The translations under genes were made by a program, and so were the position numbers. Below the pieces are notes generated by a model. The model saw nothing but the letters and a program-made list of their open reading frames with translations. It did not search any database and was not told where the DNA came from. Source: Candidatus Desantisiibacteriota bacterium (GTDB lineage: Bacteria; JACRDZ01). From it: a stretch of DNA of 5,318 nucleotides. Of this stretch, positions 257-4,988 are shown piece after piece (positions within the stretch are counted from its first letter, which is position 1; every line of letters begins with the position of its first letter). The stretch spans positions 1-5,318 of the forward strand of contig JACQWU010000167.1 of NCBI GenBank assembly GCA_016209155.1, in the 5' to 3' direction.

Positions 257-1171
257 TTGGGATTAAGATATAAAAAAATTATAGTATCAACTATTATATC
301 TGTCATGCTTTTATCTTTACCGGTCATAGCTCAGGAGGAGGATGAAAATCCGCCTGTTCGCAATATGGATGAATTTGTTGAAAAAACTGTAAATAAAATA
401 TCAAAAGTAATACCTTTTATTTCCGGATATGTAATATATAAAAAAGATAATGATATATATATAGATTTAGGGAGAAAACAAAGTGTTATACAGGATATGG
501 AATTTGAAGTATATAGAGAAGGAAAAGACATAAAGCATCCTGTTCGAGATGAATATACCGGAAAAGTTGAAGAAAAAATAGGAGAATTAAAAACAAAAAT
601 CCTGCGTGATACACTTTCTATAACAGAAGCTGTAAATTTAATACCAGACCGGCAGGTGGAGGCCGGGGATAAGGTATACTCAAAAAAAAGATGGGACAAA
701 ATAGCTATTCTTCCTATTGCCAATCCAAAAAAAGAGCAGAACTATTTCACTAAAATTCTATATGATTTAATAAGGGATAAAATTGTTCACACAACTTCTC
801 TTACTATTATAACCAAAAATGATGTTGAAAAAGCACTTTATGATCTGGGACTCGAAAATTCAAATAATTTTCTTTCAGATAAAGCTGTCAGAGCTATTGG
901 AAATAAATTAAAAGCAGAAATAATAATCTTCGGGAATCTGCTGGATATCGGAGAAAACCTTTTTTTAACTCTGCGTTTTGCAAACTCTGAGGACGGAAGC
1001 ACTTTTTTTGTAGTAAATACTGAACTTAAAAAAGAAAGATCCCTGCGGGCTTTAATATATACTATGTCACAGACGGAAGAAGCTGTACCTGTTGAAAAAA
1101 AGATGAAGATAATTAAAGCGCCTCTTTTTTATTCCACAATGGTGATGCTTTTACAGCAAAAGATATCATAG
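257..1171 (+). CDS. Secreted FlgT/CsgG-like (TolB-N-like) envelope protein, probably the 5' half of a disrupted fusion gene
   Basis: The TTG-started frame encodes 304 residues. Residues 1-25 form a Sec signal peptide: basic MGLRYKK, a hydrophobic core, and a likely cleavage after VIA. There is no lipobox cysteine. Residues 55-142 resemble a small beta-rich FlgT-type domain (GYVIYKKDNDIYIDLG, then FEVYREGKDIKHPV, closing at AGDKVY). Residues 147-258 resemble the CsgG/TolB-N fold: KIAILPI strand, IITKNDVEKAL helix, then AIGNKLKAEIIIFGNLL and a strand reading LFLTLRF. Such domains act in the periplasm or outer envelope of Gram-negative bacteria; a specific role cannot be assigned. After about residue 290 the protein no longer looks natural. 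From base 1132 the solute-binding-protein frame takes over one base out of phase, so the last 14 residues are probably a frameshift product. Downstream of transaldolase by 20 nt, likely the same operon. Domain calls are by pattern only. Confidence 0.7.
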   Translation: MGLRYKKIIVSTIISVMLLSLPVIAQEEDENPPVRNMDEFVEKTVNKISKVIPFISGYVIYKKDNDIYIDLGRKQSVIQDMEFEVYREGKDIKHPVRDEYTGKVEEKIGELKTKILRDTLSITEAVNLIPDRQVEAGDKVYSKKRWDKIAILPIANPKKEQNYFTKILYDLIRDKIVHTTSLTIITKNDVEKALYDLGLENSNNFLSDKAVRAIGNKLKAEIIIFGNLLDIGENLFLTLRFANSEDGSTFFVVNTELKKERSLRALIYTMSQTEEAVPVEKKMKIIKAPLFYSTMVMLLQQKIS

Positions 1172-2424
1172 ATTCATGGCAATATGAAATTTTAAACGGA
1201 CAATCCTACGGAGCAAAATTTATACTGGGTAAAATAGCTGGAGTTCAAAATTATAAAAACAAAGAGGATAAGCTTGAAGGACTTGAAATTCTCGATGACT
1301 ATACACTCCAGATATCTTTAAATGAAGCAGACTATGATTTTTTGTATAAACTTACACACATTAATACTTCTGTTTTTTCAGCTAAATCTTTTTCGAATGA
1401 AAATCCAAAAAATTTAATAGGTACAGGTCCTTTTAAATTAATAGATCAAACAAACGAAAAAATAACTCTTGAATTAAATAATAATTATTTTCAAGGAGCA
1501 CCGTCTGTCGATAGGATCGAATATACTACTATTACAAATCCTGCTGCTGAGTACCAAAAATTTCTTGCCGGAGAAATTGATTATTATCATCAAAGTATAA
1601 CTAAAGACGGGAAAAAATACGAAAATATTATTAATTCTGATTTCCCTGATATTTACTATATAGCCATTAATTGCCAGTACGCGCCTTTTAACAATGAAAA
1701 AATACGTCAGGCTTTGAATTATGCTGTTAACAGAGAAAATTTCACAAAATTTTTTAATAGTGTATCCATTTCAAATACAATTCTTCCTTCGAACATACAA
1801 CAATCCGACAGCTCAAAAATTGTATTTCCGTACATTTTTAATCCTCAAGAGGCTCGCAAAATACTGGATGAAAACGGATACTCCTCAACTTATTTAGGTC
1901 AGGAGTTTACTCTTGTTTATCCGGATTCTGATCCGTCATTTAAAAGCATTGCTGAAAAAGTTCAGGAAAATTTGATAGATATAGGGATCAACCTGCGCCT
2001 CGAAAGTAAAAACGCAAAGGAATTAGCCGTTATATATGAATCTTCCGCCCAGCCGGCATTTTTGTTGACTTCATTTCAATATATACCTTTTCCCGGCAGT
2101 GAACTTTACTTTTTAAAATCAGCATTCTCAACCCAAAATAAAGGCAATTACGGTAATTATGGATTATTCAGCAGCTCCATTGTCGACGCATTACTGTCTT
2201 CGTATAACGAAATCACTGAAAAAGAAAAAAAGACCGGCGCATACATAGAAATTGAAAATACTCTTCTGCGTGAAGCACCATGGATATTTATGATGAGCAG
2301 AAATAAAAAAATTATCAGGCAAAATTATTTATCAGGAATCAGCATTGGACAATATGGAATAAACTTAAGAAAAACATTTTTAATAAATAGCGGTGAACCT
2401 TCACCCGCAGAAGAAAAAAATTAG
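1117..2424 (+). pseudogene. Family 5 extracellular solute-binding protein (Dpp/Opp-type), 5'-truncated, out of frame with the preceding gene half
   Basis: This frame is open for 435 codons from just after a TAA at 1114-1116 to a TAG at 2422-2424. It is clearly SBP_bac_5: FHNGDAFTAKDIIDSW (from 1132), LEILDDYTLQISL, GTGPFKL at about 1420-1440, AGEIDYY, then APFNNEKIRQALNYAVNRE. These are the conserved landmarks of periplasmic peptide/nickel-type binding proteins that deliver substrates to an ABC importer. The family normally has some 80-90 residues before the FH-G motif, forming the start of lobe I. They are absent here, and no permease or ATPase genes are nearby. There is no ATG, GTG or ribosome binding site at the 5' end. 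The first TTG (1342) lies inside conserved sequence and is not a credible start. The likeliest reading is the C-terminal part of one protein with the 257-1171 frame, separated by a one-base shift at 1125-1131 or by a deletion that also removed the missing segment. A gene expressed by recoding cannot be excluded. Confidence 0.75.
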
Positions 2425-2635: not shown

Positions 2636-4015
2636 ATGGACTTAGAGGCAATAAAAACTTTTAATCCATGGTGGATAAATACGAAATATAGATTCGATTT
2701 GCAAAATTATATTGAAAGACATGTCCATAAAGAAATAGAAAAATATTTTAATGTCCCGCAAATAATTTCTTTATTAGGATTAAGACGAAGCGGGAAAACA
2801 ACATTGATGCAGCAGTATATCAACAAATTATTAAATGCTCAAACCCCTTCCGAATCTATTTTCTTTTTTTCTTTTGAAGATTATTTGGGTAAAAATGAAC
2901 CTGAAATTCTTGAAGATATTATCAATATCTATTTGCAAAAATTTTTACAAAAAGACATCTGGGATATAAAATCAATTCATTATATCTTCCTGGATGAAAT
3001 ACAATATATTAATCATTGGCAGGATTTAGTTAAAAGATTTTATGATAAAAATAGAAATTTAAAATTTATTATATCCGGTTCTTTTAGTTCTGTGATTAAA
3101 AAAAAATCAACCGAAAGTCTGGCAGGAAGAATATTTGAAATAAATATACCCCTTCTTTCATTCTCTGAGTATTGTTCTTTAAAAAATGTATTTCAAGAAA
3201 TCCCATTTTTCAGTATTAAAAATTTATTAGATATTTCTTCCTCTGATATAAAAAAAATAGAAAAATTCAATGATTTAAATTCAAGAAAGATAGAAATTAT
3301 ATATAGTGATTATTTATATAAAGGACAATTCCCTGAAATTAGTTTATTTAAAGATGAATCAATGGTAAATAATTATATTAGAGGTTCTATTCTGAAAAAA
3401 ATATTAACGGAAGATGCGCCTAAAATTTATAAAATTGAAAAGATTGGCGAGTTTGCAAGTATTTATAAAATAATTTCAAAAGAAACAGGAAATTTATTTG
3501 AAATACTTAATTTAGCCCGGGAAGTTGGAATAAATAAAGATACTTTAAATAATTACTTATATTATATGGAACAATTATTTTTAATAAGATTAATTTATAA
3601 TTATACGAGAAAATTAAGGCATCAATATCGTATCCAAAAAAAAATATATATTAGCAGCCCAAATTTTACCTGTAATGAGTTAAATATAAATAGTAATTCC
3701 TCGGCATTTTCTTTAATAGTTGGCAATCTTGTTGAAACTGCTGTTTATCAAATTATAAGCAAAGAATTTGAAAATGTATCTTTCTGGCGATATAGGGATA
3801 AAGAAGTAGATTTTATAATAGAAGACGGAGAAAATGTTATACCAATAGAAGTTAAATATGTAAATAAACTCCTGCCAAAACATTTGAAAAATTTATTGTA
3901 TTTTTTAGAATATAATAAGCTGGGATATGGGATTGTTATAACAAAGAATGAAATCAATTTGACAACAATAGACGGGAAAAAGATTTTGTTTTTGCCGGTT
4001 TGGGCTTTGGAGTAG
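2636..4015 (+). CDS. AAA_14/DUF4143-type ATPase with PD-(D/E)XK-like C-terminus
   Basis: A complete 459-residue protein, a usual length for this family. The N-terminal ATPase domain has Walker A GLRRSGKTT (residues 48-56), Walker B IHYIFLDEIQ (114-123, with D120 and E121), and the family's FIISGSFSSVI (145-154) followed by LAGRIFEINIPLLSFSEY (162-179). The middle, about 220-320, is helical and includes a segment at 286-319 that looks like a winged-helix. The C-terminal DUF4143 region carries GNLVETAV (E367), KEVDFII (D392) and IPIEVKY (E405, K407), spaced like a PD-(D/E)XK nuclease core. The family is widespread, cytosolic and often present in many copies. A DNA- or toxin-related role is often proposed, but the substrate is unknown. 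It has its own promoter and stands alone, bracketed by direct copies of the 88-bp repeat; the downstream copy begins three bases after its stop. It is intact, unlike its neighbours. Function beyond ATP binding and possible nuclease fold is inference. Confidence 0.9.
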   Translation: MDLEAIKTFNPWWINTKYRFDLQNYIERHVHKEIEKYFNVPQIISLLGLRRSGKTTLMQQYINKLLNAQTPSESIFFFSFEDYLGKNEPEILEDIINIYLQKFLQKDIWDIKSIHYIFLDEIQYINHWQDLVKRFYDKNRNLKFIISGSFSSVIKKKSTESLAGRIFEINIPLLSFSEYCSLKNVFQEIPFFSIKNLLDISSSDIKKIEKFNDLNSRKIEIIYSDYLYKGQFPEISLFKDESMVNNYIRGSILKKILTEDAPKIYKIEKIGEFASIYKIISKETGNLFEILNLAREVGINKDTLNNYLYYMEQLFLIRLIYNYTRKLRHQYRIQKKIYISSPNFTCNELNINSNSSAFSLIVGNLVETAVYQIISKEFENVSFWRYRDKEVDFIIEDGENVIPIEVKYVNKLLPKHLKNLLYFLEYNKLGYGIVITKNEINLTTIDGKKILFLPVWALE

Positions 4016-4018
4016 GGG

Positions 4019-4106
4019 TAACCGCTAATGGACGCGAATAAACGCGAATTAAAATAAAAAAATTAGCGTCCATTAGCGTTTATTCGCGGTTAATTTAGTT
4101 TAATTT
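4019..4106. repeat. 88-bp imperfect inverted repeat, copy 2
   Basis: This copy is identical in length, orientation and tail to 2453-2540, with three substitutions. Left-arm decamers are at 4022-4031 (CCGCTAATGG), 4032-4041 (ACGCGAATAA) and 4042-4051 (ACGCGAATTA). Right-arm decamers are at 4060-4069, 4070-4079 and 4080-4089 on the opposite strand. It lies between the converging ends of the ATPase gene and the SEC-C gene, where a hairpin could act as a two-way transcription stop. That role is inference, because no strong U-tract follows directly. Confidence 0.9.
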
Positions 4107-4115
4107 ACTCAGTTC

Positions 4116-4232
4116 TTATTTTCCAAGACAGCATTTTTTGTATTTCCTTCCACTGCCGCACGGGCATGGATCATTTCTACCTACTTTTTTTTCAGAAGAT
4201 AATTGTATTGTTTCATTCCGATACTTTTTTTT
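4116..4232 (-). pseudogene. Detached SEC-C zinc-binding tail, in frame beyond a TAA stop
   Basis: Read on the minus strand, the codons after the TAA at 4233-4235 stay open for 38 residues to a TAA at 4116-4118. They end in [17 protein letters not shown] followed by CCLGK. This is an essentially perfect SEC-C motif, the zinc-binding module first known from the SecA C-terminus and found at the end of many unrelated proteins. It has the same frame as the 4233-4988 gene and no start or ribosome binding site of its own, so it is almost certainly that gene's original C-terminus. A substitution to TAA next to a run of ten A's, a sequencing error, or readthrough could explain the interruption. Confidence 0.8.
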
Positions 4233-4988
4233 TTAATTTTTATAAAGAATTCGCAGTTGGTTATGTCTTTTGGAGAATATTGACGCCCAGTTTTTCTGGC
4301 TAAAAAGTTCAGCCATTAATTTTTTAGGAGTAATTTCTATGTCTTTACTTAATTCTTCAACTTTCCATGAATTATTTTTATAATCTAAATATATAGTAGT
4401 ATAAAACTCTTCAAGACTATCCGCTTCGGTTATAGGAATAAAATTAATAAATGTACCAGTGCAATCGCATGAACTCGATACACAATATTGGTCATCAATA
4501 AGAAATTTTTTATTATCAATTTCAAAGATTATATTTTCAGAGAATGGCAATATCTCATAAAAACCAACATTAAGAGCATCCTCTTCAATTTCGTCCATTG
4601 GGAATTCTGTTTCCATTTTTTCTATGTCTGTTGTTTTTGTGCAAAATATTTTATAATCTGTATAAAGTTTGTGAAAGAAATCCCAATCTTCTTTTTTTAA
4701 TTCTTTTACAAAATCTTTTGCAAATTTGATGTCAAAATTAGAATTATCATCAACTTTATCCTTATCTATATTTTTTTGAAAAACATCAATACTAAATTCA
4801 TGTGTTTTCTGTTCACCGTTGTTTTTTGATTGTTCATTTATAAGATTAAAATATATTGTCCCGCAATTACAGGAAAGGTTGTGACATATCTTAAGTTCTC
4901 CTGAAAATTGTTTTCCTTTAAATTCACCTTCATCAAAAATAAAACTGATTTTATCCGGTTTGTTTTTTTTAATGACATTTAAAATCAT
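4233..4988 (-). CDS. Cysteine-rich SEC-C-family protein of unknown function, lacking its SEC-C tail because of a TAA stop
   Basis: The 251-residue frame starts at an ATG (4986-4988) with AAAGGA five bases upstream. It contains two copies of one short motif: C35-x4-C40-x-C42, followed by GTIYFNLI, and C169-x4-C174-x-C176, followed by TGTFINFI. The identical cysteine spacing and the aromatic beta strand that follows suggest an internal duplication of a small metal-binding beta domain. A helical, acidic and lysine-rich stretch (about 85-140) separates them. There are no signal peptide or membrane segments, so a cytosolic location is likely. With the in-frame SEC-C tail (4116-4232) the full protein would be about 290 residues with three putative metal sites. 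I recognise it as a SEC-C-containing protein of unknown function. It converges with the ATPase gene and lies 147 nt downstream of the RecG-like gene on the same strand. Confidence 0.75.
   Translation of the reverse strand: MILNVIKKNKPDKISFIFDEGEFKGKQFSGELKICHNLSCNCGTIYFNLINEQSKNNGEQKTHEFSIDVFQKNIDKDKVDDNSNFDIKFAKDFVKELKKEDWDFFHKLYTDYKIFCTKTTDIEKMETEFPMDEIEEDALNVGFYEILPFSENIIFEIDNKKFLIDDQYCVSSSCDCTGTFINFIPITEADSLEEFYTTIYLDYKNNSWKVEELSKDIEITPKKLMAELFSQKNWASIFSKRHNQLRILYKN

Follow-up and report, generated by a model that had tools for sequence, protein, structure and literature searches.

The window, that is, the whole stretch of DNA analyzed here, is the entire contig C91 (5318 bases) of a draft genome of 3.08 Mb in 352 contigs that is 79% complete. 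On its forward strand, remnants of two protein-coding genes, one for a protein with FlgT_C-like and FlgO/LpoB-like domains (hereinafter gene 1) and one for a solute-binding protein (SBP) of the SBP_bac_5 family, meet in different reading frames. The relevant features are:

257–1125, forward strand: 5' part of gene 1, coding for a signal peptide, an N-terminal FlgT_C-like domain and a FlgO/LpoB (CsgG-like) domain; the C-terminal FG-GAP half is absent.
1117–1143, forward strand: junction, where the homology of gene 1 ends, that of the SBP begins and the frame changes.
1126–1171, forward strand: run-on in which the gene 1 frame continues out of register to an accidental stop (YSTMVMLLQQKIS), with a low coding score after about 1125.
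1132–2424, forward strand: SBP_bac_5 gene, without a signal peptide and the first ~85–100 residues, and with no start codon before 1342.

The phylum is very small, and the three other genomes compared from it are G001, G002 and G003. Since scans of genome contigs and viral contigs recovered no close relative of the window, all comparisons with relatives were made at about 24–31% identity. The contig begins inside a transaldolase/fructose-6-phosphate aldolase gene (PF00923), whose 3' end occupies 1–236; thus, the upstream neighbor of gene 1 differs from that in G001 and G003, where it is rsmA. Downstream of the SBP remnant, two copies of a near-palindromic repeat of ~90 bp (2453–2540 and 4019–4106, 97% identical) flank a gene for an AAA_14/DUF4143 ATPase (2636–4015); weaker copies occur on contigs C23 and C66 of the draft genome, and the arrangement resembles a small repeat or mobile unit with the ATPase gene enclosed. 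On the reverse strand, an ORF at 4233–4988 stops at a TAA, and the same frame runs on into a SEC-C type zinc-binding tail (4116–4235). Hence, this gene too appears to be interrupted, by an in-frame stop before the tail.

Two gene remnants and their junction

The ORF at 257–1171, as read directly from the sequence, begins at a TTG codon preceded by an AGGGAGG motif. Its N-terminal domains are homologous to those of proteins from G001, G002 and G003, which places it in the same family, and its FlgT_C-like and FlgO/LpoB-like regions were assigned via this homology (e.g., 28% identity to residues 42–273 of the G002 protein, E 8.5e-27). The aligned homologues, with 477 aa in G001, 478 aa in G003, 591 aa in G002 and 640 aa in genome G034, all extend into a C-terminal half, in which Pfam detects FG-GAP repeats in each of the three homologues scanned (G001, G002 and G034); the long C-terminal half is also present in the homologues from genomes G008 and G024. 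This FG-GAP half was found neither in the window nor in the rest of the draft genome, and the residues encoded by the run-on at 1126–1171 match nothing in the aligned relatives.

The SBP frame opens at 1117, directly after a TAA (1114–1116), and its first possible start codon is the TTG at 1342. It matches the Pfam profile PF00496 with an E-value of 2.9e-58 (198.2 bits, cut-off 32.4) over profile positions 29–367 of 368, whereas the match begins at position 2 in the G002 SBP and at position 4 in that of G001. The best Opp-type NCBIfam match (Opp4A) covers model positions 105–550 of 556. Homology to relatives restarts exactly at the FHNG motif at 1132. The remnant is 31% identical to the G002 SBP (E 3.2e-46), and the SBPs of relatives (475–552 aa) have a complete N-terminus. 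A complete SBP with a start codon, a signal peptide and an N-terminal lobe is thus not found in the window. An additional SBP on contig C348 was rejected as the missing segment, being complete and an unrelated paralogue.

A codon-periodicity model, for which the draft genome itself served as training set, scores both remnants as coding (+53.6 for 257–1123 and +47.8 for 1132–2421) and locates the best frame switch around 1138–1147; the Viterbi version of the model assigns 260–1142 to one frame and 1143–2421 to the next. The ORF at 257–1171 and the SBP frame overlap near 1117–1171, and the G+C contents of the two remnants are similar (0.317 and 0.325). Microhomology and repeats were sought at the join, with only chance matches of 9–10 bp as the outcome, and no further copy of the junction DNA was detected. 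These results bear out what the initial annotation had read from the locus: it had the 257–1171 frame losing its coding appearance near 1124–1131 (here near 1125–1143), the SBP frame becoming recognizable one base back at 1132, and ~80–90 residues missing before FHNG, for which relatives give 85–100.

The gene pair in relatives and the size of the loss

In both G001 (contig C41) and G003 (contig C14), the FlgO/LpoB-like and FG-GAP protein (477–478 aa) and the SBP (475–490 aa) are encoded by separate, complete genes that adjoin on one strand, in the order pdxA–rsmA–FG-GAP protein–SBP–serS (names given by reading translations). In G002, both genes are present, on different contigs. More generally, rsmA is succeeded by an uncharacterized FlgO-like/FG-GAP gene in all three genomes, and in G001 and G003 an SBP gene comes next (L040, L041), making up a conserved neighborhood.

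In G001 and G003, the alignment to gene 1 ends 1241 and 1407 bases, respectively, before the first SBP residue that aligns (FHN/FQN); in the window, the same distance is 68 bases. Measured in this way on the sequences, the window contig is shown to be without about 1.17–1.34 kb that G001 and G003 carry. As read from the alignments, gene 1 has lost its FG-GAP half and stop, the SBP gene lacks its start, signal peptide and first ~85–100 residues, and the spacer between the two genes is gone as well. That the missing stretch spans two neighboring genes is thus very probable. Neither missing segment was detected elsewhere in the draft genome.

The initial annotation had described a single fusion gene that lost the start of its binding domain through one deletion of a length not divisible by three. 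That one missing stretch of such a length explains the absent segment as well as the shift of frame is supported; however, the source is two adjacent genes rather than one, and the loss, correctly placed at the SBP start, is larger than supposed and takes in the FG-GAP half of gene 1 as well. The fusion gene itself is contradicted by the two separate genes of G001 and G003, an arrangement that the annotation had named beforehand as speaking against it. Its alternative, a native fusion with a homopolymer error added to it, is likewise unsupported, as roughly 1.2 kb of homologous sequence is absent, a loss that a single base cannot explain.

Frame breaks across the draft genome

We scanned the draft genome and its relatives for frame switches inside coding sequences that leave the new frame with no potential start codon close by. 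A first, looser scan also picked up ordinary neighboring genes and failed to distinguish the genomes, upon which the criteria were tightened. With the tightened criteria, the 82 contigs (751 kb) of the draft from which its rate was taken contain 20 such breaks versus 3 in 513 kb of the three same-phylum genomes (0 in 117 kb of G001, 1 in 207 kb of G003 and 2 in 189 kb of G002). The excess has a binomial p of 0.004 (0.0065 with the window itself left out), which is indicative, as the criteria were chosen after the loose result had been seen. The scan is an uncurated screen that may include, in all four genomes alike, some normal gene boundaries or genuine pseudogenes; going by the two rates, roughly three quarters of such breaks in the draft would not be expected from biology. 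Further, the sample of this assembly holds 19 scaffold N gaps (8–106 bases) versus one in the relatives, indicating that it was scaffolded.

Similar breaks strike single-copy essential genes. The ffh (SRP54) gene (L159:2839–4009, on G000:C127) is broken with a frame change and the loss of 52 internal residues: its pieces align to residues 27–270 and 323–463 of the G002 protein, and its SRP_SPB domain lies in a 143-aa frame, as against ffh frames of 447–463 aa in relatives. Likewise, the gene for an oadA-like carboxylase subunit (L084:896–2612, on G000:C93) is single-copy and broken, with about 77–87 internal residues missing; its pieces align to residues 9–187 and 275–629 of the G001 protein (629-aa frame), leaving 188–274 unaligned. 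Since a living cell could not survive with all such essential genes disrupted, many of these breaks must be assembly errors. The frame of nnr (YjeF_N plus Carb_kinase; L058:6354–8076, on G000:C1) is broken at an exact tandem duplication of 29 bp. A further broken gene looks like secD, by reading its translation. A second pgk (L096:3073–4259, on G000:C302) is also broken, with profile positions 54–90 missing; it could be a paralogue or lie on a contaminating contig, and is excluded as proof of damage to an essential gene because an intact pgk exists on C228.

Origin of the missing stretch

The excess of similar breaks in the draft indicates assembly rather than biology, and we regard an assembly error that joined neighboring genes as the probable cause of the missing stretch. 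Under this proposal, the metagenome assembler or scaffolder would have joined two non-contiguous pieces, leaving no Ns; the stretch between gene 1 and the SBP would have been lost at that join, so that the remnants meet near 1125–1143 in different frames, and the cell would carry two complete, separate genes, one for a secreted FlgT/FlgO-like FG-GAP protein and one for an extracellular solute-binding protein. The apparent fusion is not a real functional feature but an ordinary gene pair broken in the contig, most likely through an artefact of assembly. Against this stands the size of the loss, which exceeds the ~110–260 bases at the other measurable breaks and is explained less easily by a short-insert scaffolding join. 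The same size, large for a scaffolding slip, favors a real deletion of about 1.2–1.3 kb in the strain, which would have taken away the 3' part of gene 1 together with the beginning of the SBP gene and left two pseudogene remnants. This is possible because both genes are probably dispensable, and it is consistent with the colinearity of the remnants with the neighboring genes of G001 and G003, with their good coding character and similar G+C content, and with the in-frame stop before the SEC-C tail in the same contig, which could be real decay. However, the many identical-looking breaks in the draft, including those in the single-copy ffh and oadA, give artefacts a high prior, and the remnants have no extra stops or other decay over 867 and 1290 bases, such that a deletion would have to be recent. 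We hence consider a real deletion a serious but distinctly less probable explanation than the assembly join; if real, it would amount to an ordinary double pseudogene.

The discrepancy in size would shrink if gene 1 natively lacked the FG-GAP half and only the SBP start, roughly 250–350 bases, were lost in assembly, a loss near the sizes at other breaks. There is a precedent for such a short form in a distant homologue from genome G051, which has the same two domains in a 362-aa frame without the FG-GAP part. Yet the long C-terminal half is present in all three homologues from the phylum as well as in those of G034, G008 and G024, and the frame from 257 has no natural stop ahead of the junction, making this reading unlikely. 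Far less credible still is a native fusion that makes one working protein, its frames being separated by a homopolymer error of one base or bridged through programmed –1 frameshifting at the T run. This reading draws on the one-base offset between the two frames at a stretch of six T; however, the joined product would have neither the N-terminal part of the SBP nor the FG-GAP half, and no fusion was seen among the relatives searched. Programmed frameshifting was rejected, as U UUU UUA (1125–1131) lies in the SBP register rather than the required register of the 257 frame, and the downstream RNA structure does not exceed chance (fold z –0.10). A surface protein in which frameshifting truly fuses a FlgT/FlgO-like envelope domain to an incomplete solute-binding domain is, accordingly, hardly to be expected.

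The two remnants have clear counterparts among known families. Gene 1 shares its N-terminal domains, at about 24–28% identity, with the FlgT_C/FlgO-LpoB-like/FG-GAP proteins of G001 (C41), G003 (C14) and G002 (C97), but differs from these proteins of 477–591 aa in lacking the C-terminal FG-GAP half; in G001 and G003, the next gene encodes the SBP. The SBP remnant, in turn, matches most of the SBP_bac_5 profile (Opp4A/DppA/NikA-like) over 1132–2421, but is without a complete N-terminal lobe. At a rate of roughly 2.7 frame breaks without a start codon per 100 kb, the draft genome calls for caution, and apparent fusions, truncations and frameshifts in it should not be taken as biology without read support. 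The lack of such support is also the definitive sign of local assembly errors. Local assembly errors are a known class that places incorrect protein-coding sequences in databases, and they are suspected to be commonest in IDBA-UD assemblies (reviewed in PMC7111523). The junction in the window resembles the errors of this class described for metagenome-assembled genomes (PMC7111523) in that coding genes are broken at an unmarked join, and in that such breaks are enriched in the draft.
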